Assembly (NCBI GenBank): GCA_029247265.1 | Contig: JAQWLN010000177.1 | Location: forward strand, 1-64,000 | Source: Fuerstiella sp. | Lineage (GTDB): Bacteria > Planctomycetota > Planctomycetia > Planctomycetales > Planctomycetaceae | Direction: 5' to 3' | DNA: 64,000 nucleotides | In this document: piece after piece, positions 16,001 to 39,082 of the stretch | Layout of the letters: every line of letters starts with the position of its first letter | Position numbering within the stretch: position 1 is the stretch's first letter | The notes under the pieces: model-generated | The model's input: the letters and a program-made list of their open reading frames with translations, nothing else | What the model was told of the DNA's origin: nothing | Databases searched by the model: none | Position numbers and translations under genes: made by a program

Positions 16001-16879
16001 CACCAGGCCAAGAGGTCGCAGGTCCAGGACGAATTGTGTCAGAAACTCGCCGTCGCCGGCATTGTTCGTCAATTCGAACGGCTGGACAAAAGTATCTCCT
16101 TCGGCCCGGAACGACACGTCCGCTCCCGGTTCGTTGCCAATGACGTTGTTCGAGATATTCAGACCGTCAACCGGCGCATCAGCAAGGTTGACCAAAACAG
16201 CATCGCGATTGAGAGCACTGATTTCGCCGTTGTTGATAATCCGAAAATCGTCAGCTGTACTGCCACTGGCAACGTTCAGCAGCACTCCCGTGACATTAGT
16301 AGGCGCCACGATCTGATTCTCAGTGACGACGCCATGGGCGATGTCCGATCCATTAACCGCCGTAATGCTGACGCCCGGCAGCAGCGAGTCCTCGACAGTC
16401 ACCGCGTGTGAATCCGAGTTGTCCAAAGACAGGTTGATGCCGTTACCGGTCCCAGCGTTCACGCTGATGTCTTCCAGGGCGATCGTCCGATTGCCAGTGA
16501 CATTCGTCAGGCTGATGTCGATGGCAGTACCATTGAACGCGTTGACATCGATAGACTCGATCGCTAGGCGAGTCAGGGCAATACCTGATAAGTCGATGGA
16601 AATACCGTCGCCCGTGGAATTTATCGCGACGTCCTCGATCACCAGCGTGTCGTGTGTGCCGAGATCACTGTTTGCGACCGACAAAGTGCCAGTCGCGTCA
16701 ACGAAGGCGTCGACGTTCGTGCTGTTAATGACCAGAGCAGTCAGCAAAGTACGGCTTTCCAGCATCTCGCCGGAACTGACACGCGTTTTCCGGGATGCAC
16801 CACTTCGCCGTGAGCCGGGATCGTGGGCAGACCCTAAAAGATGTCGTTTAGCCGTTGCAAGCCAAGTGTTGAGATGCAT
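7046..16879 (-). CDS. Giant (3277 aa) secreted mosaic protein: LEPR-XLL-like N-terminus, parallel beta-helix repeats, FCCH-like repeats, Pmp-like region, PKD-like and Fn3-like repeats, basic C-terminal tail
   Basis: N-terminus ..SSGEMLESRTLLTALV; many beta-helix-type repeats (IENNxI/GNSGHGVNF..); GGGIYN/GGGVFNHG repeats; repeated YELWVNN...FRVWVRAxDxxGxxxxWS units; C-terminus SASLLGFALASMTLKRRRKED. Confidence 0.9.
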   Translation of the reverse strand: MHLNTWLATAKRHLLGSAHDPGSRRSGASRKTRVSSGEMLESRTLLTALVINSTNVDAFVDATGTLSVANSDLGTHDTLVIEDVAINSTGDGISIDLSGIALTRLAIESIDVNAFNGTAIDISLTNVTGNRTIALEDISVNAGTGNGINLSLDNSDSHAVTVEDSLLPGVSITAVNGSDIAHGVVTENQIVAPTNVTGVLLNVASGSTADDFRIINNGEISALNRDAVLVNLADAPVDGLNISNNVIGNEPGADVSFRAEGDTFVQPFELTNNAGDGEFLTQFVLDLRPLGLVFEANTYQAVNNSSGTNTGTLTGAGTGVLSSNNQVLTIDFTDFDSSPSETFLFVVDVDDAPAIPGDPPIDLSVFGRDLIGAQVDFSFSAGLTSGPKQVSGTMIGDANVFNASVFARGSGAAANFHGINLNLTNSPLTNAVITNNLITGVAGHGVYVDAHQQSDVSAVIKENTVVSGGQDGLRFDLLDSNFTGGVIDNTIGGNSGHGVNFQPSVSRTGLVEAAIDGSPVIITSTNHQLQTGDEIIVQGMVNDDPTVNHPGNGRHTVTRIDNNNFSLQGVSGLPATFVYVGGGSWYVPNIQVGGDARGLVEIDVQATEPQGRIQDIQFPGGGADVQISSLAHGLATGDRVRVSGAAGTLISGTLVFPITVVNNDTFSLDGVTTGGTYDTSGGLATWTTNVIEGASSAGEIVVTSLAHALTTGDEVRIVDVSLLDDTVTAAANGTWTVTRLTDHTFSLQGSTANGAYRLGTGYWIPLAEATFTGDPLPQVVSGNSISGNGQAGFYVNLTTGTRFDGDLVFNTVSGNEAKGIHVESHSFGLGTGLPLDPNDATAQPGQKDISFNVNIGTATTDGNRIESNLQAGIVVEALDFATGSFEIQGNRINANIDDNDNSTPEGDGIVVRLASDLRNSEAVAFLSESIIAENQIGVDARGNEGNGLSFALTDRTKIQDLEITSNSFLNSGLDGFHFLRTEDGDLNQVIFDDNDATNNAGDGFDLFAENTVKDRLDFKIRNSRIDNNGEYGIRVDVQADARVDLDISGSSVRKNGVNGNGFNPNDGAGATGAAGGIGIHGFQQVDINFIATDTNISENIGDGFSVDAETFFDTLNVNATFVDSDLNGNTLTGFRSVGAAFGTYTWTRSDFVGNGTDGARIISNVDVNDIFNRRVGGQDIDVVALGNDFQLNGQSGLVLGQGVSASLGSGDVTENFANEFGGRLDANRSDYGAVNSPAGNGEDGLKIVQDAGPYLRERAHRRVIQTQGNFFTFNTGDGVDIGHFVATEGGNVLHGEEVVSDTNVIITDAELSNNLGDGVEYLADDILREPPEFGSGQDLLPDPDISSLSISRSDIKNNGQRGVDVLNRFNEDSRITLVENEIIGNGYSGVYVVNTSTHFQLQNGPTDPLDVEYSNSGGIASRTPNIELRVQDNLIESNGTAAVQSTVPVNFSVDGAGNDSATATSDYHELTDQITGTLGGLVLRVGTTDTSGRIVVANPENELGRSGVDAEVWKNNFDGNFGADVYFDNFSSLVPQQSATNFHIDDNPAYRWNQGFRDPLSRLDLSFRDNSGNSLDVINGFAFIDNNERLFKSRTANGDPAPNDDGIFSDGGGRGGTERRRNSTRTLGFLNSVGDVPSSQPVLPAPGGFWSYDGWGTPTWRVESDFDFNNFAQTGTISGYSDFFDTVNISPFFAEEHYQWDTGVSQPGFAGVTPYSLQRGDVFDVQTGEAPIVADSLDENDAFVGASRLLLNPLTGVQTPVSGTFLVNSLATGGNLNIDRKGDRDYYQFIAAGTGALDVDLSATDANGDFLSFLIYEIDLNESSSEVAMVQAANGVPVRTTVTAGNMATITVNVVAGRSYIVEVLSDESSNVAFAATAGKSFNYGTVRSYSLTIDAPPGPAPVFAAAAPAAASGGASAVSASSPGVTAAASIANQDPFIQSITQVSPDPIGTSINNLIVTFSEDVTGVDEADFQLTRDGVALDVFGQGGAIFNAIDAATYEVTNLASLTGENGDYIFTFVVANSDVLDTDQAPLVVAGAETESWTVNNSVSFFGDTIDNIPDDGNIADVNGDRSLRAGIMETNANPGADVLTLSPGTYTLTRAGRFEDSGLTGDLDIRDDLTIRGTGATALDTVIDAAQLDRVFHVFPGVELILDNLTIQNGETFDGAGIFVEGRTTATGITAGSAAIVRMTDVNVIDNEAYNQGGGIYNLGLVDVSYSSISRNTAGSRGGGVFNHGNLTLLNATVSTNIAVSRGGGVYNELLSTAVNTSIQPVSAFGSLKAINSTIALNQAQAAGGGIYQESFSTVQLGNTIVDQNTALTSADLFGPISSLGFNFIGVLDGTPEQSLLLTSDTAANLTAGVTTAGLNALSTSPHNGTWLHTLAANAFVIDAGSRAIFTTELQIPDTDAAVIAESDQGHTALSPRLVEGNDDGIFAIDIGASEFFVSQPVAIITATPNPAGVNENVSFDGAGSTHTLTPGTVRIVSYEWDFDYDGITFTADATGQTATHAYSALGAFTAALRVTDDVAATDISTLVLNVAAPSAPVIISPLSAGTSDLTPTISWQSGTGTFSLQVVNVDTGLTVINETNLTATSFTPATNLVPGNYEAIVTASNASGFASSDPYPFIVQRMTLIDPLNFDIEFDTSPEFTFTAIPDADRYQVWVSQLDPDDRTSTIAIPINESFIDAQQALVVGTTQAVWEPSNRLTEGFFRVWVRAFDDTGNAGAWSAASQFQITRPSITGPEPVTRLTLDDTPTITWSDVGANQYEIWLSQLNGTITDSGGNTVTLTSSQLITNEIVSGATSYTPTSLLGNGDFRVWVRAIDDDGEAGLWSDQYDFTKNRNQGPVLISPIQGATTTDRTPIFEWQAIAGATHYELWVNNSNTQTPRIIHNTNVPHVEGATSIYYTDSSVVLRNATYRWWVRAFNEDSGAAAWSSSETFWVPTPVMTAPVGVVASTNRPTFTWTGVPEYVRYELWVNNDTTNQSRVIYEPDLTDVTFTAQLPLLNGDFRAWVRGHDIDGNASQWSNPITFSVNSTISNAPTALTPQRFTTDNTPTFEWSTLPNLTTYEIFVKNMLATGQPTVLNELVTPVIDPNTGNATYTTTNTLVVGTYRWWIRGVNADGTPGPWSQPLDFRVAAAEQPAGLGDNSFDPETFVASISNKQWSDDLVSITVHPAAVVAARLVEESEASVEVSNEDMPHHDLDTIMDELATADWWDTPFTDAEEAASLPNENGSSEVLSSAVSVSPDTATSNDRKSASLLGFALASMTLKRRRKED

Positions 16880-19730: not shown

Positions 19731-21065
19731 TCAATGAGCCGTGCCGCGACGTTTTAGTGTATCAACAAGGACGGCCAGAAGAACGACAGCACCCAGCACA
19801 ATCTGCTGTTCTGGTGCGCCCACTTTCATCAGATTCATACCGTTTTTTATGACGGCAATGATAAACGCTCCGATAAGCGTACCGAAAATCCGCCCTTCGC
19901 CACCCATCAGAGACGTGCCACCCACAACGACCGCGGCGATTACGTCCAGTTCGAACATCAGTCCGAGCTTCGGGTCGCCCGAGCCCAGTTTGGACGATTG
20001 CACGATTCCTCCCAGTCCGGCCAGCGCCCCACACAGCGTGTAGACCACGACAATCACGCGTTTTACCGGCACGCCTGACAATCGAGCAGCTTCAGCGTTG
20101 CCACCGACGGCGTAAGCGTAACGGCCAAATACCGTTCGGGACATCACCACGTGGGCAACACCATACAACACGACCATCAGAAAGACCGGGTTGGGAATTC
20201 CAAACGTCGCAGCGCCACCAATCCAGGTGAAAGAAGCGGGCAGCGCCTGAATGGAAAGTTCGTCCGAAAGTCGTCGCGCCAGTCCTCTGGCCATTAACAT
20301 CATGGCCAAAGTGGTGATGAATGGAGGGATGCCCAGGCGAGTAATCATGACACCATTGAACACTCCTCCCAGCGCACATATTCCCATACCGACGCAGCAC
20401 CCCACGATCATCAGGCCAGCGCCCGTTTCAGTGCCGTCGCCCGCGTCGCGAATGAAAACTGCCGCTGCCACAGCGGAAAGCGCCACCAGCGAACCGACAC
20501 TCAGATCGATGCCTGCGGTGATGATGACCATTGTCATGCCAATGGCGATTATGGCATAAATGGCGGTCTGATTGGCCACATTCAGGATGTTCTCGGACTT
20601 TGCGAATGTAGGCCAGAGTGTCGGGGCAGCACTCACGCATCTGCTGTTGCCGACGGATTCAAATCGATCGTAGATGCTCCATCTTGCGGCGTCGCCCGTG
20701 GCCGCAATCGCATCGATCGAATGTCCTTCCTGCAGAACGCGCTCGATTGCTCTGCGAGCATCAGCCGGCCTGCCACCTACAGTGGCCGCGACCGTGACTC
20801 CCGCTGCTTCAAGCGCGTCGGTTGCTTCCCGAAGAAAAGATTCGTCCGGCGGCTTCAGGCCAGCGACGACAACGACGGTGCTGGATGATCCATGGGCATT
20901 GACAATATCGCGAGCCACCACCCGTCCGGCGTCAGCCCCCGTCGAACTCTGGCGTTCCAGAGTCAGGACACTGAACGCCGCAATCAGGATCAGCAGGACA
21001 AGCACCATACCGTAGTTGTTGGCGAATGCCGCCCAGCGTTGTGGCTTTGGTCTTGTTTCGTTCAT
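19731..21065 (-). CDS. rbsC: Ribose/sugar ABC transporter permease (RbsC-type) with inserted N-terminal periplasmic domain
   Basis: AIYAIIAIGMTMVIITAGIDLSVGSLVALSAV, GGTSLMGGEGRIFGTLIGAFIIAVIKNGMNL are characteristic of BPD_transp_2/RbsC. Confidence 0.88.
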   Translation of the reverse strand: MNETRPKPQRWAAFANNYGMVLVLLILIAAFSVLTLERQSSTGADAGRVVARDIVNAHGSSSTVVVVAGLKPPDESFLREATDALEAAGVTVAATVGGRPADARRAIERVLQEGHSIDAIAATGDAARWSIYDRFESVGNSRCVSAAPTLWPTFAKSENILNVANQTAIYAIIAIGMTMVIITAGIDLSVGSLVALSAVAAAVFIRDAGDGTETGAGLMIVGCCVGMGICALGGVFNGVMITRLGIPPFITTLAMMLMARGLARRLSDELSIQALPASFTWIGGAATFGIPNPVFLMVVLYGVAHVVMSRTVFGRYAYAVGGNAEAARLSGVPVKRVIVVVYTLCGALAGLGGIVQSSKLGSGDPKLGLMFELDVIAAVVVGGTSLMGGEGRIFGTLIGAFIIAVIKNGMNLMKVGAPEQQIVLGAVVLLAVLVDTLKRRGTAH

Positions 21066-22561
21066 CAGTTGATCGCCAGCTGCATAATTTCTTCCTGGGT
21101 GGCCGAGGCAACGTCGCAGATTTCCCCGGTGATCCGACCTTCGTGCATGACCAGAATTCGATCACTCATGCCCAGAACCTCCGGCAGTTCAGAGCTGATC
21201 ATGATGATAGACTTGCCCCTGGCCGTCAGGTCGTTCATCAACTGGTAAATCTCGTGCTTGGCGCCGACGTCAATGCCTCGAGTTGGCTCATCAAAAATCA
21301 GCACTTCCGCGTTCTGCTGGAGCCACTTGGCCAACACTACTTTTTGTTGATTTCCTCCCGACAGATTCCTGGCCAGTTGCTGCTGGTGAGGAATTCGAAT
21401 ACTCAGGGAATCGACGTAAGCGGAAAAGGCTGAACGTTCATGTCGTTGTTGCATCACACCGAACGCAGACAACTGCCGTACGTTGGGCAGCGCAAAATTC
21501 TCACGAACGCAGCGGCACAAAACCAGCCCCTGCGACTTGCGGTCTTCGGTTAGCAGACAAATGCCAGCGCGAATGGCGTCGCGAGCAGAGTTAATATTCA
21601 GCACTTGGCCATCCAGTGCGATCTGCCCCGCATCTCTTGTGTCAGCACCGAATATCAGTCGCACCAGTTCCGTACGACCGGCACCGACAAGTCCTGTCAG
21701 CCCCAGAATTTCACCGCGGCGGACCTCAAAACTGACGTTCCTGACAGTGGCACCTCGACAAAGTCCTTTGACGACCAGTCTGGCATCTCCAATTTCGGCG
21801 GCTTGTTTCGGAAACTCGTTTTCAATGGATCGTCCCACCATCAATTCGATCAACTGCTGGCGGGTCATCTCAGAAGCGGGGGCGTCACCAACATATCGAC
21901 CGTCACGCAGCACGGTAATCGTGTCCGCGATATTGAAGATTTCATCCAGTCGATGACTGATGTAAATGATGCCAATGCCCTGACGTTTTAGCTCGTGAAT
22001 AATGGCAAACAGCTTGTTGACTTCCTGCTGCGTCAATGCCGCAGACGGTTCATCCATCACCAGCATGCGTACATCCTGAGACAACGCTTTTGCGATCTCC
22101 ACCAGCTGCTGCTGAGCGATCGACAATAGCCGACTCGGGATATCCAGAGGCACGTCAACACCCAGTCGCTCAAACAACACAGCGGCGCGTGATCGCTCGT
22201 CCGCACGATCGACTAACAGGCCTGTTCGCTCACGTCCCAGAAAAATATTTTCCCATGCTGTGAGCGCGGGAATCAGGTTGAACTCCTGATAGATGACGCC
22301 GATGCCTGCTTCGATGGCCGCTGTTGGGCTGGAAAGATCAACCGGTTTCCCGTCGATCGCGATCGTTCCGGCGTCGGGCCGGTGAGCCCCCCCGAGTGTC
22401 TTGATCAGAGTACTCTTGCCCGCTCCGTTTTCTCCCATCAGCGCTAACACTTCGCCGCGATGCAGCCTCAGTGATACGTCGGAAAGAGCCTGCACTCCGG
22501 GGAACGATTTTCGGATCCGGGACATTTCAAGCAGCGGGGCGGTGTTGACAGTGTTGACCAT
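21065..22561 (-). CDS. rbsA: Sugar ABC transporter ATP-binding protein (RbsA-type, two ABC domains)
   Basis: Walker A GENGAGKSTLIKTLGG; SIAQQQLVEIAKALS; LVMDEPSAALT; second domain LSGGNQQKVVLAKWLQ, LIFDEPTRGIDVGAKHEIY. TGATG stop/start overlap with rbsC. Confidence 0.93.
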   Translation of the reverse strand: MVNTVNTAPLLEMSRIRKSFPGVQALSDVSLRLHRGEVLALMGENGAGKSTLIKTLGGAHRPDAGTIAIDGKPVDLSSPTAAIEAGIGVIYQEFNLIPALTAWENIFLGRERTGLLVDRADERSRAAVLFERLGVDVPLDIPSRLLSIAQQQLVEIAKALSQDVRMLVMDEPSAALTQQEVNKLFAIIHELKRQGIGIIYISHRLDEIFNIADTITVLRDGRYVGDAPASEMTRQQLIELMVGRSIENEFPKQAAEIGDARLVVKGLCRGATVRNVSFEVRRGEILGLTGLVGAGRTELVRLIFGADTRDAGQIALDGQVLNINSARDAIRAGICLLTEDRKSQGLVLCRCVRENFALPNVRQLSAFGVMQQRHERSAFSAYVDSLSIRIPHQQQLARNLSGGNQQKVVLAKWLQQNAEVLIFDEPTRGIDVGAKHEIYQLMNDLTARGKSIIMISSELPEVLGMSDRILVMHEGRITGEICDVASATQEEIMQLAIN

Positions 22562-22675: not shown

Positions 22676-23701
22676 CTATCCCGACTGCAATGCCGGATCC
22701 TTTTCGGCGTCTGCTTTATAGTACATCTTTGACGGAATCAGGATTTCTTTCGGCACATCGTCACCGTCGAAATATTTCAGAATCATTTCGATGGTTGTCT
22801 TTCCCATCTGGTCCGGAAACTGAATGGGATCGCACAGAATCGTCCCTTTCAGAATCGCTTCTTTGCCGGCTTTTTCACCGTCGAACCCGATGATCGTGAC
22901 CTGATCCTGCTTGCCGGCTTCCTCAAGTGCGCTGCGAGCTCCCAGTGCAGACGGGTCGTTGATGGCAAAGATCGCGGACAAATTCGGATTTGAAACGATG
23001 GAGTCCTTCGTCACGGCGTAACCCGCTTCTCGTGACCCTTTTCCGTCCAGGGTGGCTACGACTTCAATCTTTGCGGATCCGTCTTTGGCGTTGTGTGCGT
23101 CTACCAGTTCTGTGAATCCCTGAACACGCAACAGACAGGAAGACGCGTCCGGCTTGTGCACAACTAATACTGTGCCACCCGATTCACCCAGAAGTTTGAC
23201 CATGGCTTCACCGGCAAGACGTCCTCCCTGCAGATTATCCGTCGCGATATGGCATTCGACCAAACCTTCGTCACCATCGTATCCCGTGTCGTTGGTGAAC
23301 ACGGGAATCCCCTTGTCGTTTGCTTTCTTGATCGCCTGCCCGATGGACCGCGGGTCACAGGGTGTCAGTACAATTGCCGAGACACCCTTGACAATGAAAT
23401 CGTCTATCTGATTTGACTGTTTGTTCACATCGTCGTCGCCGGAAACAACGATGACTTCATAGCCGTGTTTCGCGGCTTCCTCTGTCATGCTGTCGCCAAT
23501 GACTTTGAAAAACGGATTGGTCAGTGACATCGTCGTGTAACCAATTAACCCTTTGGATTCTCCGGTGGCAGGGGCCGAATTATCCGAAGTAGCGGGGCCG
23601 GAACCTGTGCTGTTACTGACCTGAGAGTTGTCTCCACAACCAGACACCAGAAGGGCTGATATCAGGACAATCGCAAGCCGGGTTTGAGTATCCATCGACA
23701 T
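22676..23701 (-). CDS. rbsB: Sugar ABC transporter substrate-binding lipoprotein (RbsB-type)
   Basis: Lipobox ALLVSGCGDN; periplasmic binding pattern IGYTTMSLTNPFFKVIGDSMTEEAAKHGYEVIVVSGDDDVNKQSNQIDDFIVKGVSAIVLTPCD. ORF runs to 23740; Met at 23701 (or 23695) likely start. Confidence 0.88.
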   Translation of the reverse strand: MSMDTQTRLAIVLISALLVSGCGDNSQVSNSTGSGPATSDNSAPATGESKGLIGYTTMSLTNPFFKVIGDSMTEEAAKHGYEVIVVSGDDDVNKQSNQIDDFIVKGVSAIVLTPCDPRSIGQAIKKANDKGIPVFTNDTGYDGDEGLVECHIATDNLQGGRLAGEAMVKLLGESGGTVLVVHKPDASSCLLRVQGFTELVDAHNAKDGSAKIEVVATLDGKGSREAGYAVTKDSIVSNPNLSAIFAINDPSALGARSALEEAGKQDQVTIIGFDGEKAGKEAILKGTILCDPIQFPDQMGKTTIEMILKYFDGDDVPKEILIPSKMYYKADAEKDPALQSG

Positions 23702-23959
23702 GAGTAATTCACCAATACGTAGTGTTTGATCGTCGCTCAACAGGTTGGGCGGTTTCGACCCGCGTCAACAAGGTAACGAAAACGCCGAAGAAACCCCTGT
23801 ATGATCAGTGTTTTTCCTATCGAAACGCAAAATCGACAGGGCAGGAGGTTTTGGCGAAGTGTTCGGATTGCGAAATCCTTCAGCGGTGACTGATCGTGGA
23901 GCCGTGATTCCCGCGATTTCGCGCGTGAGACCAGCTAAAAACGTGCGTATAGTGGGCGC

Positions 23960-25456
23960 ATGGACACGTCCACTCTTCTGATGCACTTTGATTCGTCACC
24001 GGCGACCCGGCTGCTGCGAGCAGGTAATGCACCGTACGTCGTTGCGTTTCTGCACACTCAGTTCAAACAGACCGGGACGATCACCATTCCTCATTCTGAG
24101 CTGCTGCCCGCTCTGGCATCGTATCAGGAGGATTTGCAGCTTTCGTGGCCCGACGCTCTCCGAAACAACCCCGAGACCTATCTGGCCGACTGGTGTTCAC
24201 CGGACAAACTCTGGCTGCACAGGTTTCTGGAGGCGGGCCATGACGAACCGATCTACCAGTTGACACCACACTGCGAAGAAGTGATCGAGTTTTTGAATCA
24301 GTCGCTGCACAAAGACATCGACTTTGTCGGCACGGAATCACGACTACGCCTGGTGATCGAAACATTGCAGCAACTTGTCGTTGGCGCCTCAACCGATCCG
24401 ACTGTGCACCTGGACGAACTTAGAAAACAAAAGGCGATTATCGAAGAGCAAATCGGGAAGATTGAACGTGGTGAACAGGTCCCGGCCTTTCACCCCACTC
24501 GGATTCGAGAACAGTTCAACCTGGCCGTCACAATGCTGAAGGAGCTGGAACGCGATTTCCGCGCTGTTGAAGAGCGGTTCAAACAGATCACCCAGGACGT
24601 CCAGCAGAAGCAGATAAAAGGGATGGATAGCCGTGGTGGAATCCTCGGTGCCGCAATGGACGCCGAAGACGCTCTTCGTGCAGATGACCAGGGCGTCAGC
24701 TTCTATGAATTCTTCAGGCTGATTCAGTCCACGGAGCAGCAGCGACAACTGCGAGCCATCATTCAGCAACTCCCGGAGATTTCGGAATTAGCCGACCAAG
24801 CGGAAGGCCTGCAGGCGGTTCGTCGCATGATGCCGTTGCTGCTGAGCGAAGCGGCCAAGGTTACTCAGACAGAACGCCGCCTGTCGTCCACGCTACGCCG
24901 CCTGCTGGATGCTCCGACGCATCAGGAGAGCAAGCGTGTTGCTGAACTACTGCGTGAAATCCGAGGGCTGGCCGCGGCAATGGCCACTGATCCCCCGCGT
25001 GACGAAGTCGCAATTGACGTCGAAGATTCAGTCGCGTTACAGTCGCCGGTAAGTCGCCAGTTCTGGACAGAACCGACGGAATTCGAAACGATCGACCTGA
25101 CAGAACAGACAGACGATACCGTTCAGCGACACGACCTGTTCCGCGAATTTGCGAATCTGCAGCGAATAGATTTTCGATCCATGCGGTCACAGATTCACGA
25201 TGCCACTCGCTCAGGCGGCGAGGTGACGCTGGGCGAACTTCTGGACAGTCACCCTCCTCAATCGGGCGTGATGGATGTGCTTGGCTACATTCAGATTGCA
25301 ACAGACGACGGTCACCTGATCGATCACGACCTGCCTCAGGAAGTCGTCATTCCCAGCGGCCTGGACGACAGTCGCACACTGATTGTCACCGTGCCGCGAG
25401 TCATGTTTGTGGCGCAAGGGCATACCGTGAAGGACGCCAGCCACACCGCGGAATGA
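23960..25456 (+). CDS. jetA: JetA/MksF-like Wadjet condensin subunit (DUF3375)
   Basis: DUF3375 pattern: [77 protein letters not shown], followed by jetB/jetC-like genes. Confidence 0.88.
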   Translation: MDTSTLLMHFDSSPATRLLRAGNAPYVVAFLHTQFKQTGTITIPHSELLPALASYQEDLQLSWPDALRNNPETYLADWCSPDKLWLHRFLEAGHDEPIYQLTPHCEEVIEFLNQSLHKDIDFVGTESRLRLVIETLQQLVVGASTDPTVHLDELRKQKAIIEEQIGKIERGEQVPAFHPTRIREQFNLAVTMLKELERDFRAVEERFKQITQDVQQKQIKGMDSRGGILGAAMDAEDALRADDQGVSFYEFFRLIQSTEQQRQLRAIIQQLPEISELADQAEGLQAVRRMMPLLLSEAAKVTQTERRLSSTLRRLLDAPTHQESKRVAELLREIRGLAAAMATDPPRDEVAIDVEDSVALQSPVSRQFWTEPTEFETIDLTEQTDDTVQRHDLFREFANLQRIDFRSMRSQIHDATRSGGEVTLGELLDSHPPQSGVMDVLGYIQIATDDGHLIDHDLPQEVVIPSGLDDSRTLIVTVPRVMFVAQGHTVKDASHTAE

Positions 25457-25493
25457 ACGCCTCTCGAAGTTACAAGACCCTGCCCTCTGAACA

Positions 25494-26123
25494 ATGAATT
25501 CTCTGATGGACATAGCAACTAATACCCACAAGCCGGAACACTGTGAATGGAGCGAAGTCGCTGTCCGGCTATTCCAGGGGGTCGTGTATCTGGAAGACGG
25601 CAGATCGTGGGACGTACTGCTGCGCAACGTCACTCCGCTTGAAGATTACTTTGGCAGAGTCGGATTGCAGTTGGTGATCGATGAAGGTGAAGGGTTTGCT
25701 TTTCTACGGCAGCAGCAGACAGAGGATCTGCCGGACGGCTGCGACAGTCTGCCGAAACTATTTCGTCGTACACGACTGAGTTACGACGCAACCTTGCTGA
25801 CGATTCTGCTGCGTGAAGAATTGCGCCGTTTCGAAGAAGAAGAAGTCGACGATCAGCGCTGCGTAATGTCCGGCGATGTTTTATTTGAACAGTGGAAAGA
25901 GTTTTTCCCGCGTGATCAGGACGAGCTGAAACTGCGGAAAGCTCTGAACGCGGCGATCCGAACTCTGGAAGCACTTAAGTTCGTTCGGCGCTTCGGCCGG
26001 GAAACGGACGACTGGGAAGTCCGCCGCATTCTGAAGGCCCGCCTGATCGCCGCTGACCTGGAAGCTGTTCGAGACCAGTTCGAGAGTGCGTTTAAGCGAC
26101 GAAGGGCTGAACAGCCCTCCTGA
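25494..26123 (+). CDS. jetB: JetB/MksE-like Wadjet condensin subunit (DUF4194)
   Basis: DUF4194-like: LPKLFRRTRLSYDATLLTILLREELRRFEEE...LFEQWKEFFP..DELKLRKALNAAIRTLEALKFVRRF; located between jetA and jetC. Confidence 0.85.
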   Translation: MNSLMDIATNTHKPEHCEWSEVAVRLFQGVVYLEDGRSWDVLLRNVTPLEDYFGRVGLQLVIDEGEGFAFLRQQQTEDLPDGCDSLPKLFRRTRLSYDATLLTILLREELRRFEEEEVDDQRCVMSGDVLFEQWKEFFPRDQDELKLRKALNAAIRTLEALKFVRRFGRETDDWEVRRILKARLIAADLEAVRDQFESAFKRRRAEQPS

Positions 26124-26224
26124 CCGAACACCCCGCGGCCACAGGCAGGGCCTCATTTTTCAATCTCGCACTGCCATAGCTGCCGGCAAAAACGACAGAC
26201 CCCTCATTCAACAACCAGGCTACA

Positions 26225-29200
26225 ATGTCCCAACTTCTTGAACCAACAACTCTTACCAAACCTGGTTACCGCCTGCATCGGCTTGAGGCGTATAACTGGG
26301 GTACGTTCGACAGCACCGGCGAAGGTCATCGCGGCGAGGTTTACTGCATCGAACCAAAGGGCGACACCACTCTGCTGATCGGTCGGAACGGTTCCGGCAA
26401 GTCGACGCTGGTCGATGCGATGCTGACGCTGCTGGTTCGTCCCGCCATTCGAAACTACAACGTTGCAGCTGGTGCTAGGAAACGCGAAAGAGACGAACGA
26501 ACCTATATTCGAGGTGCATTCGATCGTCGCAGCGGCGATCAGGAAACGGGTGCTCAGGTGCAGTATCTGCGACCGGGCAACGCACACTATTCAGTGCTGC
26601 TGGCCAGTTTTCATAATGACGGTTCCGGCAAGACCTTCACGATTGCTCAGGTGTTATACATCACGGCCGACGGCAAAGCAGAACGAATTTACTGCTTCGA
26701 CGACCAACAGCGATCAATTGCGAAGGACTGTTCCGCACTGAATAAGGCAGATCTGCTGCAGCAAATGAAGAAACGCGGTTTTCGGGCGACTCGCAGTTTC
26801 ACTGAGTACCACCAGTGGTTTCGCAGGGCCACAGGTGTCCGAAAAAAAGCGATGGACATGCTGAACCAGACCGTCGCGGTGAAAGACATTCAGCGGTTGA
26901 ACGAATTTATCCGTGACCACATGCTGGAAGCTCGCTCATGGGGAGAAACCGTCGACAGCCTGCTGACCCACTTTGGTCAGCTGAGCGAAGCTCATCAGAC
27001 ATTGGTGAAAGTCCGAGACCAATTGAAGCTGCTGGAACCGATCGAAAAGCATGGACTGAAATGGCGTGAGCAGACAGACGGATTGCAGTCGTCCGAAAAA
27101 CTACTCGCCGCGACAGACACGTTTTTTTGCCAACAGGTTGTATGCCTTTTTGAGCCGGAGTGCGCTGCACGCCAATCCGAACTGGAGCAGATTCGCGGCC
27201 GGAAGGCCCAACTGGCGACGATGATCTCCGACTCGCAAAGGCTCATTCGCCGTCAGGAAAATGAAATAGAAAACGCCGGCGGTAATCGGCTGAAAGAGAT
27301 TCCTCGTCTGATTGAACTCGAACATAAGGATGCCGCGAGTAAGCGTTTGAGCAGCCGGCGATTCCACGATGCTCTGCGAACAGCCGGTGTCAACGCTGTA
27401 GCGGGTGATACCGAATCGTTTCATGCAGTCCTTGCCGATCTGCCCGATTTGACGACGAAGACAAAAGCTGAACTGTCCACCGTTCGGGCGACATACGACG
27501 ACGATGTGATTCAGCAGAACGATCAGCGAACCCGGCTGGCAGAAGCTCAGGAAGAACTTGCTGCTCTGGAAAAACGCCAATCCAATCTGCCGCGGCGGCT
27601 TGTTGACGTGCGTCAGCAGCTGTGCAACGTTTTGGATTTGTCTGTCCAGGATTTGCCATTCGCCGCAGAACTGATTTCTGTACTGACGGACGAACAGCAG
27701 TGGCAGTCATCAATCGAAATGGTGCTGCAAAGCTTTTCGTTCAGCCTGCTGGTAGCGGACAGGCACTATCAGGCCGTCAGCGCTTACATGAATCAGAATC
27801 AGCTCAGGGATTCACGAGGATTTGGCCAGAAGATTGTCTACCTGCGCGTGCGTGAACGTCAGCGGCGGCTGGACGGCTCCGTACTTGATCCTGATTCACT
27901 GGTTCGCAAGTTGAAGCTGCGGGAAGGTCACGTACTGCTGCCATGGGTCCAGGCCGAACTGGAGGATCGCTTCGATTACCGTTGCTGCACCTCCATCGAA
28001 GAATTCCGATCAGTTCACGGACCTGCAATCACTCCGGAACGTCACGTGCGCAACCGGAACCATCACATCAAAGACGATCGTGACTGCGCCGGCGATCCTT
28101 CCAGTTTCGTATTGGGCTGGGACAATACCGACAAGAAATGGTGGCTGAGCGACTCCATTCAACGGCTGCAGTCCGAATTGAAAACAGTGGATGAACGTAT
28201 TCGGCTTCGCCGTGGGGAAGAAAAGTCACTCAGAACGCGCCTTAATGCGATCAAAGAAGCGTCCACGGTGCAGAACTTTGCCGACCTCAATTTCACGGTT
28301 CACGATACGACTATTACGCAGCTGGAAGACGAACGTCGACAGCTGGAGCAGGACAACGACACGGTCCGAGTGCTGAAGCAACGATTGGCCGAACACGTGG
28401 CCAGCGAGAATCTGTACACAGTGAAGCGAGATGAATCCGGAGTGCATGAAGGCGAAGTCAAAAGCCAGCTTGCTGACGCACAGCGGCTGCTGGACACGGC
28501 CCGGCAGACTCTTCAGCAGTTGAACGACACAGGCGAACTGACGGAGCACATGGAGTGGTTTGAAGCGCTGTCGAGCCTTCTGGGTGACGAACCTCTGACA
28601 GCGGTCTCGTTTTATCAGCGGGAAAAAGACTTCCGCCGTGCGAGAGAAATGGAGCGAGACCGGCAGCGGGAAAAAGCGCAGCCTGTGCAGGAACGACTGT
28701 TGAGGGAAATGAGCCGCTTTCTGGCAAAATTCCCGCAAGAAAAATCGGACCTGCAGCCGTCGACGGAATACCTCAGCAGCTTTCTCGGCTTGCTGGAGGC
28801 CATTCGCGAAGAAGATCTGCCGCGCCATGAGCAGCGTTTCAAGGAACGTTTGAACGACAAAGTAACACGCGAAATTGGTCTGCTTAACAGCGAGCTGGAG
28901 CGGGAACGCTACGCCATCGAAGACAAGATCGACCAGCTGAACCAGGCGCTGATGCAGCTGGAATATCGTCCTGGCACTCACATGAAACTGGATGCCCGAC
29001 AGGCGAGCGATCGCGAAATCAGGGAATTTCGCAATGAGTTGCATGCCTGTCTGGATGAAACGCTGGCAGTATCGTTCGAGGCAGACGAAGCTCGGTATGT
29101 CCGCATTCAGAATCTAATCCAGCGACTACGCGACGAAGATCGGTGGCGCAACAAAGTCATCGACGTACGCCGCTGGTTCGATTTTTCGGCTCGTGAGCTC

Positions 29201-29632
29201 GATGATGCGACCGGTAAGGAGCGCAGCTACTACGAGGACAGTACGGGTCAGTCGGGTGGCGAAAAAGCCAAGCTGGCCTTCACCATTCTGGTGGCGGCCA
29301 TCGCGTACCAGTACGACATCGATCCCGGAACCGACGACAGTGACCGTTTCCATTTTGTTGTCGTCGATGAAATGTTCAGCAAAATCGACGATCAGTATTC
29401 CGAGTATGCCCTAGAACTTTTCCGCAAGTTCGGTCTGCAGTTGTTGATCGTAGCTCCGCTGGATGCCAAGGCCCGCGTGACTGAACGTTACGTCGGGTGT
29501 TATCTGCTGGTCGCCAAAGACGAACAAAGTCACTCTCGTATTCATTCCATGACGGCTCGGGAATTTGAAGAACAGACGACAGACACCGGCGCATCGACAA
29601 TCCAGACACTGCAGCGCAGGAAGCCGAAATAG
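26225..29632 (+). CDS. jetC: JetC/MksB-like SMC ATPase of a Wadjet-type condensin
   Basis: Walker A LIGRNGSGKSTLVDAML; long coiled-coil middle; ABC signature GQSGGEKAKLAFTILVAAIAYQY; Walker B HFVVVDEMFSKIDDQYSEYALELFRKFGLQLLIVAP. Confidence 0.9.
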   Translation: MSQLLEPTTLTKPGYRLHRLEAYNWGTFDSTGEGHRGEVYCIEPKGDTTLLIGRNGSGKSTLVDAMLTLLVRPAIRNYNVAAGARKRERDERTYIRGAFDRRSGDQETGAQVQYLRPGNAHYSVLLASFHNDGSGKTFTIAQVLYITADGKAERIYCFDDQQRSIAKDCSALNKADLLQQMKKRGFRATRSFTEYHQWFRRATGVRKKAMDMLNQTVAVKDIQRLNEFIRDHMLEARSWGETVDSLLTHFGQLSEAHQTLVKVRDQLKLLEPIEKHGLKWREQTDGLQSSEKLLAATDTFFCQQVVCLFEPECAARQSELEQIRGRKAQLATMISDSQRLIRRQENEIENAGGNRLKEIPRLIELEHKDAASKRLSSRRFHDALRTAGVNAVAGDTESFHAVLADLPDLTTKTKAELSTVRATYDDDVIQQNDQRTRLAEAQEELAALEKRQSNLPRRLVDVRQQLCNVLDLSVQDLPFAAELISVLTDEQQWQSSIEMVLQSFSFSLLVADRHYQAVSAYMNQNQLRDSRGFGQKIVYLRVRERQRRLDGSVLDPDSLVRKLKLREGHVLLPWVQAELEDRFDYRCCTSIEEFRSVHGPAITPERHVRNRNHHIKDDRDCAGDPSSFVLGWDNTDKKWWLSDSIQRLQSELKTVDERIRLRRGEEKSLRTRLNAIKEASTVQNFADLNFTVHDTTITQLEDERRQLEQDNDTVRVLKQRLAEHVASENLYTVKRDESGVHEGEVKSQLADAQRLLDTARQTLQQLNDTGELTEHMEWFEALSSLLGDEPLTAVSFYQREKDFRRAREMERDRQREKAQPVQERLLREMSRFLAKFPQEKSDLQPSTEYLSSFLGLLEAIREEDLPRHEQRFKERLNDKVTREIGLLNSELERERYAIEDKIDQLNQALMQLEYRPGTHMKLDARQASDREIREFRNELHACLDETLAVSFEADEARYVRIQNLIQRLRDEDRWRNKVIDVRRWFDFSARELDDATGKERSYYEDSTGQSGGEKAKLAFTILVAAIAYQYDIDPGTDDSDRFHFVVVDEMFSKIDDQYSEYALELFRKFGLQLLIVAPLDAKARVTERYVGCYLLVAKDEQSHSRIHSMTAREFEEQTTDTGASTIQTLQRRKPK

Positions 29633-29807
29633 CAGCCCGTCACCGGGGTTATCATCAGCGCAGCGAATGAAAACCGAAAAACGGGCACACTGCCGTCCAC
29701 GAGCCTCATGGAACCACGAACAGCCTGAGGTCGCCTGAAGTTCAACATCCGTCTGTTCACACATACAATTGTCGACACTGACATATCACAGCACGCGGAG
29801 TATTCAG

Positions 29808-30914
29808 ATGTTACAGCAACACGTGTTTTCGAAGTGCCGAACAGTCATTGTCGTCACCCTGGTCGTGTCGGGAGCCGGGCCTGTACTGGCCCAAACGCCG
29901 GCGCAGAAATCGTCGACGTTTGACCGCTGGGACAAAAACAATGACGGGCAGCTTTCGCGCGACGAACTACCTGCAGGTGCGCGACGGAATTTTGAGAAAG
30001 TGGATACAGACAACAGCGGGTTTATTTCGCGCAAGGAAGACCAGGCGTTCCGGATTCGAAGCACACGGCGTCGGCCACCAACTCCGAAATTGCCACAGGG
30101 CGTCCTCGTCGAACGCGACATCGCCTACGTAAAGAATGGTCACGAGCGACATAAGCTCGACCTTTACCGGACTGAGAAGTCGAATGAAGCTCGACCGCTC
30201 GTGATCTGGATTCACGGCGGCGGCTGGCGAAACGGCAGCAAGAATAATTGTCCCGCCGTGCCTCTGGTGAATCGCGGTTTTGTCGTTGCGAGCATCAACT
30301 ACCGCCTTAGCGGCCACGCCGTTTTTCCGGCGCAGATTACCGACTGCAAAGCGGCCATCCGGTGGCTGCGGGCGAATGCGGGAAAGTACGGGATAGACGG
30401 CGACCACATCGGCGTGTGGGGTTCTTCGGCGGGTGGACATCTGGTCGCATTGCTTGGGACGTCCGGAGACGTCGTGGACCTGGAGGGCGATGGTGGTAAC
30501 GTCGATCAATCCAGTCGAGTGCAGGCCGTGTGTGACTGGTTCGGTCCCACAGACCTGCTGCTGATGAATCAGCAGGCAGGCGATCGCGGCACGATTGACC
30601 ATGACGCAGCGGACAGCCCCGAATCGAAATTACTCGGAGGTTCGCTGCAGGATAACGCTGACAAGGCAAAGCGAGCCGGGCCGATCACATACGTGACGCC
30701 CGACGACCCACCGTTCATGATTGTCCATGGCGACCAGGACTCGCTGGTTCACTGGAAGCAAAGTCAGATGCTGGCAGATTCACTTACGAAATCAAAATGC
30801 GACGTGACTCTGACAATCGTCGCCGGCGCAGGGCACGGCCGCTTTCGGGATCCAAAAATAACCGAGGACAGTTTTCGCTTCTTCGAAAAGACTCTGCTGA
30901 GCAAAGTACGCTGA
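29808..30914 (+). CDS. Secreted EF-hand + alpha/beta hydrolase (carbohydrate-esterase/BD-FAE-like) protein
   Basis: Signal peptide; EF-hands DKNNDGQLSRDE and DTDNSGFISRKE; hydrolase motifs VIWIHGGGWRNGSK, GVWGSSAGGHLVALLG, IVHGDQDSLV. Confidence 0.85.
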   Translation: MLQQHVFSKCRTVIVVTLVVSGAGPVLAQTPAQKSSTFDRWDKNNDGQLSRDELPAGARRNFEKVDTDNSGFISRKEDQAFRIRSTRRRPPTPKLPQGVLVERDIAYVKNGHERHKLDLYRTEKSNEARPLVIWIHGGGWRNGSKNNCPAVPLVNRGFVVASINYRLSGHAVFPAQITDCKAAIRWLRANAGKYGIDGDHIGVWGSSAGGHLVALLGTSGDVVDLEGDGGNVDQSSRVQAVCDWFGPTDLLLMNQQAGDRGTIDHDAADSPESKLLGGSLQDNADKAKRAGPITYVTPDDPPFMIVHGDQDSLVHWKQSQMLADSLTKSKCDVTLTIVAGAGHGRFRDPKITEDSFRFFEKTLLSKVR

Positions 30915-32104: not shown

Positions 32105-35100
32105 ATGTCTGAAACCGAGATCGTTATTCGCGGGGCTCGCGAACATAACCTGCGCAATGTCAGTCTGGCGTTGCCGCGGAACAAGCTGATCGTGATGACC
32201 GGAGTCAGCGGCTCCGGAAAAAGCTCGCTGGCGTTTGATACGTTGTACGCTGAAGGCCAGCGGCGATACGTGGAATCCCTGTCGACGTACGCTCGGCAGT
32301 TTCTGGGACAGCTGCCCAAACCCAGCGTCGATTTGATTTCCGGGCTGGCCCCGTCGATTTCCATTCAACAGAAATCAACCAGCCGAAATCCTCGCAGTAC
32401 CGTCGGTACGATCACGGAAATTTTCGATTACCTGCGAGTTCTGTTCGCTCGAGTTGGCCAGGGCTACTGCCACGTCTCGGGGAAACCGATCAAGGCTCAG
32501 TCTGCCGATTCAATCATCGAAAGCATAGCGCGTCAGCCCGACGGCACTCGTTATTCGATTCTCGCTCCGATTGTGCAGAATCAGAAGGGCGAGTTCAAAG
32601 ATCTGTTCGAAGATCTGCTGAAGCGTGGACACCTGCGAGCCCGTGTGGATGGCGAAGTGATTTCGCTCAACGACGACCTGAAATTACGCCGACACCACAA
32701 GCACAATATTGAGGTCGTGATTGACCGACTCGTTGCCGGCCCGAGCAGCCGAAGTCGTCTTGCCGAAGCTGTCGAACAGGCACTGAAACTGGCGGACGGG
32801 CGCTTGATCTGTGCGACGGAGCGTCGAGAGACGAGCGGCGAGAGTCCAGGGAAGAAAACAAAGTCGAGCGGCGGCAGGGCTAAGGCTGCGTCAGCAGAGG
32901 ACTCAGGCATATCGACCCTTGACACTCTCTACAGTGCGAATTACGCCTGTGCCGAAAGCGGCATGAGCTACGAACCACCATCGCCTCAGCTGTTCAGCTT
33001 CAACAGTCCGCTGGGCATGTGTCATGAATGTCACGGGCTGGGAATGAGACATGGGTTCGGTCCGTCATCGATCGTGATTGATGAAAAGAAGTCAATCCGC
33101 AACGGAGCACTTCTGTTTCTGCCGTCCTTGAAGAAGGTTGGGCGCTGGCCACGGCACATACTGGTCAGCGCCGCTGAAGCCATAGAAAAGATTGCAGGCA
33201 TGGAAGCCGACACGCTGCTGAAGATAAAGTGGGTTGACGTGCCTGCGGAAGCGCAACGGCTGTGGCTTGAAGGAACCGGCGACCGGCACATCACGTTCAG
33301 TTGGAGAACTCGCGGCGGCGTCTATAAGCACGGTGGCACCTGGGAAGGCTGGACCAATCGGCTGCTGGAGAACTACCGCACGACGAAAAATCCGATGCAG
33401 CGGCGAGCCATGGAGAAGCATCTGGAAGTTGTACGGTGCCCGGCCTGTGATGGCGAACGGTTGAACCAGCAGGCTCGCAACGTACGCATCACCACCAGCA
33501 ACAGTCGAATCAGGAAACGCGGCCTGCCGATGGAGATGAGTCTGCCACAGGTGTGCGCGCTCAGCATCGAAGAAGCGGCAGAATTTTTTGCATCGTTGAA
33601 GCTGGACGCCACCCGACAGATGATTGCTGAAGAGGCGCTAAAGGAAATTTCCGGGCGGCTTGGTTTTCTGCTGCAGTGCGGACTGCATTATCTGACTCTG
33701 GAGCGGTCGGCCCCAACTCTATCCGGCGGAGAATCGCAGCGAATTCGATTGGCAGGGCAGATCGGATGTGGACTGGTGGGCGTTGTTTATATTCTGGACG
33801 AGCCGTCGATAGGTCTGCATCCTCGCGACAACGTCATGCTGCTGAAGAGTCTGCAACACCTGCGCGATCAGGGCAACACGGTAATTGTTGTCGAGCACGA
33901 CGAAGAAACCATGCGGGCGGCCGACCACATCGTTGATTTCGGTCCGGGTCCAGGTGTTCGTGGCGGCGAGGTGGTGGTTGAGGGTTCTGTTAAGAACCTG
34001 TTGAAGAACAAGCGCAGCGTCACCGGCCAGTACCTAAGCGGCCGCAAGGAGATAGAGGTACCAAAAAAACGCCGCACAGGTGGCAAAGACGCCATCGTCG
34101 TAAAGAACGGTCGACACAATAACCTGCAGGGTGTCGACATCAAATTTCCGCTGGGCCGATTCATTTGCGTGACCGGCGTCAGCGGCAGCGGCAAAAGTTC
34201 TGTCACCAATGATATCCTGTGGCAGGTACTGAATCGCGACGTCAACAGGGGGAAAGGCGAGCCCGGCAGGCATGACCGAGTGAATGGGCTGACGAAGATC
34301 GACAAAGCCATCGACATCGATCAGTCGCCTATCGGTCGAACGCCGCGCAGCAATCCAGCCACCTACGTCAAAGTGTTTGACGAGATCCGTAAGTTGTTCA
34401 CAGTTCTGCCGCAGTCAAAAATGCGGGGCTACAAGCCGGGACGATTCAGTTTCAACGTGCCTGGCGGTCGATGTGAAGCGTGCGAAGGGCATGGGGCGAC
34501 AAAACTGGCAATGGACTTTCTGGCAGACATCTGGATGCCGTGCGATGTCTGCGAAGGCCGCCGCTTCAGTCATGAAACTCTGGAGGTTAAATATAAGGAA
34601 CACAATGTCGCCGAAATCCTGAACATGGAGATCCGCGATGCTCTGCAGCTGTTCGAAAACGTTCCGAAAATCAGACGGCTGCTGCAGACTCTGGTGGATG
34701 TGGGCCTCGATTACATGCAGCTGGGTCAGCCGTCGCCAACTTTATCCGGAGGAGAAGCTCAGCGGATCAAGCTGGCTCGAGAACTCGGAAAACGGTCGAC
34801 GGGCAAAACGCTGTACCTGTTGGATGAGCCGACGACCGGATTGCACTTTGCGGACGTTCACAAACTACTGGAAGTGTTGCACGGTTTCGTGGAACAGGGA
34901 AATACCGTCATCGTTGTCGAACACAATCTTGACGTGATCAAGACGGCCGACTGGGTGATTGACCTTGGGCCGGAAGGTGGAGCGGGTGGTGGCCGGATCG
35001 TTTGCGAAGGGACGCCGGAGGACATCGCGAAGTGCAGGGATTCCTACACGGGTTCAGCCCTGCGAAGTGTCCTGCCGGGGATGAAGCCTCGAGCAAATAA

Positions 35101-38100
35101 TAAAAATCGACGAGGAATGGGGACAAAAGCGGACCCGTTTATTTTTAACCGGCTAATTCAGATTACCGGTGCGTCGCAGCATAACCTGCAGCGTTTGGAT
35201 CTGGAGGTGCCTCGGGGTGAAATGAGCGTCTTTTGTGGCCCCAGTGGCAGCGGTAAAACGTCGCTGGCAATGGATACGTTATACGCCGAAGGGCAACGAC
35301 GCTATGTCGAAAGTCTGTCCGCATACGCCCGGCAGTTTCTGGGCCAGATGCCGAAGCCTAAGGTCGAAAGCATTCAGGGGCTGAGCCCCGCGATCGCAAT
35401 CGAACAGAAGACGGTCGGCGCCACACCGCGTTCAACGGTTGGCACCGTGACCGAGATTTACGACTACCTGCGAGTACTCTATGCTCGACTGGGAATCGTT
35501 CATTGCCCGTCGTGCGGCATGGAAGCTCAGAAACAGACGACAGACGAAATTGTGGAAGCGGTTCTGAAGCTGCCCGCAAAATCGCGACTGCTGTTATTGG
35601 CACCCATTACCGTCGATCGACAGACGCCGTACGAAACAATCTTCGAGCGGATGCAGAAAAACGGTTTTGCCCGTGTTCGAATTGACGGCACCACCCATTC
35701 GCTCGGTGAAACGCCCGACATGGATCATCGTCGCGAGCACGAAGTCGAAATCGTTGTCGACCGAGTCGTTGTGGACCGCAGACAGCGCGGGCGGATCACC
35801 GATTCCGTGGAAGCCGCCCTGGATCTGGGCAAGGGCGTCCTGCGTGTCGTGGTGGCTGCAAAAGAAGTCGAGGAAGCCGATTGGGAAGATCACGTTTTCA
35901 GCCTGCACTTGTCCTGCCTCGACTGCGGCTACTCCTACGATCACCCGACGCCGCAGCAGTTCAGTTTCAACAGCCCGCTGGGCTGGTGCTGGTCGTGTGA
36001 AGGATTGGGCACAGAGTATGGGGCCAATCAATCACTTCTGGTTACCAGCCCGGAAAGCTCACTGCTGGACGGGGCCATAGGGGCCTGGCCGGATCCTCGG
36101 TCCAACTCACAGTTTGGCGTGATGCTGAAAGCGATTGGTACAGAGTTCGACATACCGTTGGACCAACCGTGGTATTTGCTTTCAGCGGAACAACAGCGAG
36201 TGATCCTCTACGGGACCGAGGACCGGTGGATCAATGTGGAGAGCGGAGAGAAAAAAGCGGAAAGCGGCAGAGCCGGAATGGCTGTCAACATAGGGCGATC
36301 GTCGTTTCGCTTTCGATATCGTGGTCTGTTTCCAACCATCGAACAGGCCGCGCGGCTGTCGTATTCGCACCGACGATCGCTGATGGAAATGGCTGGAGAA
36401 AAGGACTGCAGTGTTTGTAACGGAACTCGTCTGCAGGAAGTCACCGCCAATGTCCAGTTGAAAAAAACCACGTTGCCTCAACTGTGCCGAATGCCGTTGA
36501 TCAAGGCGTTGGAGTTTCTGAAATCGCTGAAGCTGACGAAAGCTCAGAAGCAAATTGCCGGAGACCTGCTGAACGAGTCGGTTCATCGACTGAAGTTTCT
36601 GGTGGATGTCGGTCTGGATTATCTGACGCTGGAGCGGTCGATGCCGACTCTGTCGGGGGGCGAATCGCAACGCATTCGTCTGGCCGGGCAGGTTGGCCGG
36701 TCGTTGACAGGTGTGCTGTACGTGCTGGACGAACCAACAATCGGCCTTCACCCGCGCGACAACGGACGACTGCTGGCGGCGCTGAAGCGGTTGCGGGATC
36801 TTGGCAATACGGTGCTACTGGTCGAGCACGATCGTGAAGTTCTGCAGGCTGCGGATCGGCTGTTTGACTTCGGTCCGGGTGCCGGGCGATTGGGTGGCAC
36901 TGTGGTTGCCCAGGGAACGCCCAGACAACTTGGTCGCCAGACGAAAAAGTCACTGACTGGCGGGTACCTCAGCGGCAAACTGGGGATCCCCGTCCCGGAG
37001 CAACGACGGCTGCCATCCGACGCGGTGGACTGGCTGCAGCTTTTGGGTGCTGCTCAGCACAATCTGCGCAACGTCGATCTGCGAATACCGCTGGCCACCA
37101 TGACTTGTATCACCGGCGTTAGCGGCAGCGGAAAAAGTTCGCTGGTGATGAGCACTTTGGCGCGAGCAGTGGCTAGGAAACTTAATCTGGCGACGGATGC
37201 GCCCGGACCGCACAAAGACCTGCGAGGCATAGAACATCTATCGAAAATCGTCGTCGTTGATCAAAACCCGATCGGCAATACACCAGCGTCCAATCCGGCA
37301 ACGTACACCGGACTGTTCGATCATATTCGAGAGCTGTTTGCTAAAATGCCGGACTCCAGAGTCCGCGGCTACGGCCCGGGGCGATTCAGTTTCAATCGGG
37401 CAGGTGGCCGTTGCGACGACTGTGAAGGTATGGGCCAGCGGAAAATCGAAATGCACTTCCTGCCCGACGTGTGGGTCGAATGCACCACATGTCAGGGCAA
37501 GCGTTACAACGCCGAAACGCTGAACGTGAAGTTCAACGACTACAGCATCGCCGACGTACTGGAAATGCCCGTAGAAAAAGCGCTGGAAGTGTTTTCGAAC
37601 GTACCGAAGATCCGAGCACCACTGGCAACACTGAACGCAATCGGACTGGGCTATCTGACACTTGGTCAGTCAGCGCCGACTCTGTCCGGCGGCGAAGCTC
37701 AGCGTATTAAACTGGCCGCGGAACTGGCAAAGCCCAATAAGGGAAAAACTCTTTACCTGCTGGACGAACCCACGACCGGACTGCACTTTGATGACATTGC
37801 CAAGCTGCTGGCAGTTCTCAGCAGCCTTGTGGAACAGGGCAACACAGTCGTCGTGATCGAACACAACCTTGATGTCATCAAGATGGCCGACTGGGTTGTT
37901 GACCTCGGTCCCGAAGCGGGCGCCGGCGGCGGACAGATCGTGGCAGAAGGTACGCCGGAGGACATCGTGTCGATTGCAACGGCGGCGTTGTCAGCAGGCA
38001 CTAGTCGACACAAACGATCGGCCACAGCCCGGCAAGCGGTGCTGCGGTCATGGACGGGAGAACTGCTGGGACCGGTGCTGGCGGAATCGAAAACCGGCAG

Positions 38101-39082
38101 CATCGACGTGTTCGATGTGGCCGGTGCGGCAAAAAAGCAGGCCGGCGATGTCACCGCAGATCAACTTGGCAAGTCAGCTCGGTTGCCATGGGAAACGGAC
38201 GGCCAGCAATGGCACACCAGGGAATGTCTGAGCCATGACGGAAAGCGTTGTCGGTGGGGAGGTGATGCTCTGCAGTTTGTGATCGACCTGCTGGCAAAGG
38301 AAGAACGGCTGGCTCCGGTCAATTGGAATCATCGTTCCACTGTCGAAGTCAAAGCCGCTGGCGGTCTGGGCTGGCTGCTGCACGCTCGCACCGGCCACGA
38401 GTGGATTCTGTCACTCTGTTTCCGAGTCAGGAAGCAGACGTTTGACACAAAGTCGCTGCGTGCCGCATTGGGACTGACACCGATCGACGATGTCGAAGAG
38501 ATCCAGTATTACAGCCAGTCACCGCGAGTCAACGTGCGAAACCTGAAGACGCCGTGGCAGGAAGTGACGATTAAGGTCTGGAACATAGAAGAGATTGATA
38601 ATTCGGCCTTCAAGTCATTCCTGCAGCAGGCTGTTGAGGCCCATCTGACCCAGGCAACAAAGGAAAAAGCCAATCCGGACGACTTGATGCCCTGGAAACA
38701 GCTTGGCCGCAAATGGCATCTGATGAAGAAAGGTCTGCCCAAGAAAGCAGGCTGGGACTTCCGAACGGTCGAAAAGCTGCTGCCTATAGTGGAAAAGGTG
38801 TTTGCGACCTGTGACGTCGACTACGGGGTTCGCAGCCGGACCAACTGGAAACACAAGGACAGCAGCGAACCGGCCGCCGAGTTGCACACCAAAAGAAAAG
38901 ACGGAGTCGATCTTGTGCTGTACGTGCCAAAGGATACTGTCACGATCGGAGCGATCGCTGATTTTGGTACCGAACAGGAAGTCAAACTGCACCGTGATGG
39001 ACGGGACCGCGTACGAATTCGATTTGAATCCCCGAGCGAAGTGTCTCCGAAGCTTGGCAAATGGCTCCGTGGCCAGCGCTGA
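32105..39082 (+). CDS. uvrA: Double-length UvrA (two tandem UvrA units) with C-terminal extension
   Basis: Four Walker A motifs ([36 protein letters not shown]), four LSGGE(S/A)QRI(R/K)LA signatures, four ILDEP/LLDEP/VLDEP Walker B motifs; two [16 protein letters not shown](T/A)YARQFLGQ(L/M)PKP repeats. Confidence 0.95.

Follow-up and report, generated by a model that had tools for sequence, protein, structure and literature searches.

A Wadjet motor operon in Fuerstiella, probably MksBEF-like and derived by deletion of the nuclease gene jetD

Type I Wadjet systems (JetABCD, also EptABCD or MksBEFG) combine JetABC, an ATP-driven dimeric loop extruder, with JetD, which cuts after a small circle has been fully extruded (PMC10586767, PMC12647877). 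Known plasmid cleavage by Wadjet requires JetD (PMC10586767, PMC10123090), and an N-terminal motif of JetB, IFDR, contacts JetD (PMC10586767). It has already been proposed that MksBEF of Pseudomonas, and perhaps MukBEF as well, arose from Wadjet via loss of JetD. No transitional case between Wadjet and MksBEF was found in the literature searched.

The stretch of DNA analysed here, called the window, covers 64,000 nucleotides of a contig from the planctomycete Fuerstiella sp. (genome G000). It contains jetA, jetB and jetC genes on the same strand and in the core order of type I Wadjet (Table 1). In comparisons with solved structures JetA matched the PDB chains 8dk1 (E 4e-14) and 8q72 (E 3e-12), and JetC matched the JetC chains of 8as8/8q72 (E 2e-55) over residues 12-1115. 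The Walker A motif, the signature and the Walker B glutamate of JetC are all intact. Alignment with a congener, G099, suggests that the true start of jetB is possibly the ATG at 25506. The flanking esterase and RbsB-like genes are outside the Wadjet system and serve only as synteny anchors. Elsewhere in the window there are a double-length UvrA of 2325 aa whose single ORF holds two UvrA units (32105-39082), one ORF joining a FAD-dependent oxidoreductase (DAO) domain and an rRNA methylase domain (2302-4008), and a very large ORF of 3277 aa (7046-16879) with a weak PKD-domain match only, probably encoding a secreted or surface protein.

Table 1. Features of the jetABC locus and its flanks (window coordinates)
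Feature	Coordinates	Strand	Evidence and remarks
rbsC	19731-21065		upstream anchor block, with the RbsB-like gene
rbsA	21065-22561		upstream anchor block, with the RbsB-like gene
RbsB-like sugar-binding protein	22676..23740	-	divergent upstream anchor; PF13407 183.7 bits; syntenic in G045 and G099
jetA (MksF-like kleisin, DUF3375)	23960..25456	+	498 aa, intact; PF11855 306.9 bits (cut-off 28.6), PADLOC JetA1 343.9 bits
jetB (MksE-like KITE subunit, DUF4194)	25494..26123	+	209 aa; PF13835 121.2 bits, MksE PF21980 51.9 bits, PADLOC JetB1 157.8 bits
jetC (MukB/MksB-like SMC ATPase)	26225..29632	+	1135 aa, intact; PADLOC JetC1 1042.5 bits
JetC Walker A GRNGSGKST, residues 53-61	26381..26407	+	92-sequence JetC alignment
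JetC ABC signature QSGGEKAK, residues 1009-1016	29249..29272	+	92-sequence JetC alignment
JetC Walker B and catalytic Glu VVVDEMF, residues 1045-1051	29357..29377	+	92-sequence JetC alignment
jetC-esterase junction	29633..29807	none	about 175 bp; equivalent site in G099 holds a Uma2-like gene, jetD and further genes
EF-hand/BD-FAE esterase	29769..30914 (ORF as listed)	+	PF20434 235.7 bits; likely ATG 29808

The initial annotation described a JetABC operon with no jetD next to it, and the profile matches, the motifs and the null searches for jetD all confirm this, at a level well beyond chance. Within the window, tblastn with three planctomycete JetDs found nothing above chance level (E values of 1.1 and higher). 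In the whole genome (6.53 Mb in 280 contigs, 90.5% complete; the window is on contig C156) there was no match to the JetD_C profile (PF09983) or, at E up to 0.1, to the closest PADLOC JetD1 model (PDLC00522). The same was observed in the sister genome G045, which is 97% complete. The suggestion that jetD is encoded elsewhere was thus not borne out by either model in either genome. The sensitivity of these searches is adequate, because both models readily detect JetD in congeners and in other members of the family. The main caveat on the absence of jetD is the incompleteness of the fragmented G000 assembly.

JetC is present in six of the eight genomes of the genus Fuerstiella. Three of these (G018, G099 and G100) have jetD, and it was not found in the other three (G000, G045 and G097). 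The gene follows jetC in the operons of G018 and G099, and in G100 the two genes lie together on a single contig. The order without jetD, rbsC-rbsA-rbsB / jetABC - esterase - downstream genes, is conserved in G045. G099 has the same anchors, and there jetABC is followed first by the Uma2-like gene, then by jetD and then by other genes, one of them a DUF1501 gene, with the esterase beyond them. The Uma2-like gene, located between jetC and jetD (L072:6175-6741), encodes a putative endonuclease of the Uma2 family. The jetC-esterase junctions of G000 and G045 can be aligned end to end and retain no relic of jetD.

In the JetC tree, G000 and G045 are sisters (support 100/99), joined next by G099 (100/97), in a clade that also contains the JetD-bearing G018 and G100. 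The JetDs of G018, G099 and G100 form a single clade (SH-aLRT 100), and therefore jetD seems to be ancestral in the genus. As G000 and G045 share the junction without jetD, a single ancestral deletion is the simplest reading. The simplest history would then be an ancestral jetD that was deleted once, in the lineage of G000 and G045. Since three congeners carry an adjacent jetD, in G099 between the same flanks, its absence from the window represents a lineage-specific loss and not an old nuclease-free design. The initial annotation had itself named an adjacent jetD in relatives as evidence against its interpretation, which is thus supported only in part.

The reading frames of jetA, jetB and jetC are open in both G000 and G045. 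Between these genomes, dN/dS is 0.129 for JetA, 0.095 for JetB and 0.129 for JetC at dS of 0.87-0.98. These values are averages over all of the time since the two genomes diverged, and if each lost jetD on its own, some of that time may lie before the loss. The flanking esterase has a similar dN/dS (0.095), and that of the rbs genes is slightly lower (0.08). Among JetC proteins accompanied by JetD, 120 columns reach a conservation of 97% or more, and the JetCs of G000 and G045 depart from none of them. When conserved columns were chosen symmetrically (171 columns), each of the two deviated at 2, just as the JetD-bearing G018 and G099 did. The recurrently changed JetC columns that include G000 and G045 are changes shared across Fuerstiella. 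An apparent tendency of JetCs without JetD to break invariant sites (E444, K637, G352/353) was rejected, as the choice of columns had been biased to JetD-bearing rows and a symmetric test leaving relatives out gave p 0.33.

JetABC nevertheless evolves about three times faster in G000 and G045 than in their JetD-bearing sister G099. Lineage-specific amino-acid changes (singletons) in JetABC number 82 in G000, 91 in G045 and 23 in G099, against 36, 53 and 39 in the control genes rbsA, rbsB, rbsC and two DnaE (Fisher p 4e-5, with sites treated as independent and few genomes compared). The DnaE copies and the rbs genes served as species markers since the G045 assembly has no RpoB contig. Normalised by fourfold-site singletons, the JetABC values are 2.8-2.9 versus 1.2 (p 0.016); the rbs controls shift as well, but less. 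The JetC branches have lengths of 0.14-0.15 in G000 and G045 and 0.055 in G099. Judged from these comparisons, the motor is constrained yet faster-evolving, a pattern of altered or partly relaxed selection and not of pseudogene decay. The acceleration in the absence of JetD could also be a sign that constraint has been relaxed and the operon is slowly declining.

The N-terminus of JetB (25494-25560) contains a near-constant pattern P-E-[YF]-R-[DE], which reads P-E-H-C-E in G000 and S-D-T-Q-E in G097 and is kept in G045. It is possible that the change reflects a relaxed contact with JetD. Loss of a JetD-contact motif was rejected as a signature of JetD-less operons, as G045 keeps the pattern and its equivalence with IFDR could not be shown.

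Among 150 genomes of the order, JetA was found in 29 and JetD_C in 23. Intact jetABC operons without JetD occur in three complete genomes (G002, G003 and G036) and a near-complete one (G043). The GTDB contig collection yielded 71 full-length JetC loci, 41 with an adjacent jetD and 30 without, of which 26 have more than 2 kb of downstream sequence. On a FastTree tree of 92 JetC sequences, whose long branches leave details unsure, the state "no adjacent jetD" requires 15 changes, 11 of them forced by well-supported branches.

A genome-wide search for JetD_C divides the loci without an adjacent jetD into two sorts, those with an unlinked jetD and those with none that is convincing. An intact jetD at an unrelated locus was found in six genomes of the Pirellula clade (L233-L238), in G111 (L060 and L061) and in G134 (L062 and L133); none of these JetDs has lost the invariant acidic Toprim residues E299, D342 and D344 (G018 numbering). 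Such split systems, with a stand-alone jetABC and jetD elsewhere, occur in two distinct regions of the JetC tree. In about 20 further genomes, of unknown completeness and without an adjacent jetD, the search gave no convincing JetD. False negatives do occur: the search overlooked the JetD of L175, which runs off the end of a contig. On this evidence, both unlinking and loss of jetD are recurrent in the phylum, the window being one clear case of loss.

In G502 (L138:7154-8578) a JetABC locus without JetD has a JetC truncated to about 450 residues, indicating real decay after or together with the loss of jetD. One Pirellula genome, G542, has two jetABC operons (L188 and L218) with JetCs from different clades, and one unlinked jetD. 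The verrucomicrobial operons L171, L179 and L186 lie on a long branch and have no adjacent jetD, and no JetD_C was found in the two searchable genomes.

The initial annotation also considered a non-canonical effector. Clustering of neighbours revealed no gene family common to the JetD-less operons, and thus nothing conserved adjoins them that would support an adjacent one. The immediate neighbours identified by Pfam and PADLOC are an esterase, SBP_bac_5, MetW and a NACHT/WD40 protein. A shared replacement effector next to these operons was rejected, as the neighbours share no family and those scanned are housekeeping or unrelated genes. The window genome encodes a full canonical Smc (1370 aa). 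This leaves no vacant condensin role for JetABC, which counts against the extruder reading favoured here, and the candidate role of sole condensin was rejected.

Taken together, the genes and their history suggest that the locus is probably a type I Wadjet motor core whose jetD was deleted in a recent common ancestor of two Fuerstiella species, and which now is a nuclease-free extruder of the MksBEF kind. JetC (SMC ATPase), JetA (kleisin) and JetB (KITE) are predicted to build the usual dimer-of-dimers motor, which would use ATP for extrusion of DNA loops. With JetD missing from the cell, a fully extruded small circle would trigger no cleavage. JetABC would then act on plasmids, the chromosome or both, by a working principle comparable to that of MksBEF. 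We infer that the motor is active and has a JetD-independent job. The nuclease-free loop extruder, one of the options of the initial annotation, fits best as a derived state, because JetABC is still constrained; it was not inherently nuclease-free. A wider reading, which we consider as likely as not, is that Wadjet motors of Planctomycetota have survived their nuclease again and again, jetD being either lost in many independent events or unlinked from jetABC. Under it the Fuerstiella JetABC would be kept by selection for JetD-independent loop extrusion on plasmids or the chromosome, and the losses would be replicate recent cases of the switch that has been proposed from plasmid defence to condensin.

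One alternative is a decaying remnant, in which jetD was lost recently, JetABC has no selected function and the disabling mutations are yet to come. The roughly threefold faster amino-acid change in both JetD-less lineages, the longer JetC branches and the already broken JetC of G502 would fit it. However, the two species differ by about 0.9 synonymous changes per site, and in both of them all three genes are still open, with dN/dS of about 0.1, whereas an unconstrained operon of 5.6 kb would be expected to show stops and frameshifts at this distance. Moreover, no conserved column of JetC is newly changed relative to the congeners, and the mildly raised rbs controls in the same lineages indicate that the acceleration may be partly genome-wide. 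We therefore regard decay as unlikely.

It seems rather improbable that the system is a split Wadjet, with an intact jetD elsewhere in the genome that was missed through a missing contig or strong divergence. Intact unlinked jetD genes do exist in G111, G134 and the Pirellula clade, and a genome that is 90.5% complete leaves room for one, but neither model matched in G000 or its more complete sister, and the split lineages belong to other parts of the JetC tree. JetABC might instead be partnered with a different, non-homologous effector, adjacent or unlinked. The Uma2-like gene of G099 demonstrates that other nucleases can enter the operon. However, the genes downstream of JetD-less operons are mutually unrelated and often in the opposite orientation, and none of them is recognised by a defence model as an effector unit. 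Such a partner, above all an adjacent one, is considered very improbable.

What makes the locus interesting is the matched species pair together with the recurrence; the machine itself is not of a new kind. The loss can be seen within one genus and at one locus, where the JetD-bearing sister serves as matched control, and other planctomycetes show additional losses that arose independently. The locus offers a naturally occurring test of the way in which a machine that kills plasmids might become something else, and it allows one to ask what the JetABC motor does once the ability to cut is gone. It is also a warning: for many planctomycetes it will be wrong to call Wadjet present on the strength of JetABC alone, or absent because no jetD is adjacent.

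The locus resembles type I Wadjet in its JetA, JetB and JetC families, gene order and ATPase motifs, and its JetC is nested among those of JetD-bearing type I operons. It differs in that jetD is neither adjacent nor detectable: JetD, encoded with the operon or anywhere in the genome in type I Wadjet, was found in neither position in G000 (90.5% complete). The split systems of the Pirellula clade, G111 and G134 likewise have a stand-alone three-gene jetABC operon, but they encode an intact jetD elsewhere, and none was found in G000. The locus has what characterises MksBEF-like complexes, namely MukB-like SMC, kleisin and KITE genes without MksG and with intact ATPase motifs, and the condensin MksBEF of Pseudomonas aeruginosa is likewise a three-subunit MukBEF-like complex without a nuclease. 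The nesting of JetC among planctomycete type I JetCs, in a tree without MksB references, points to an origin independent of MksBEF. Compared with P. aeruginosa MksBEF, the Fuerstiella case would be a separate loss that took place recently within Planctomycetota, and a sister species still bears jetD at this locus. By this analogy it looks like an early, independent instance of the transition from Wadjet to MksBEF.
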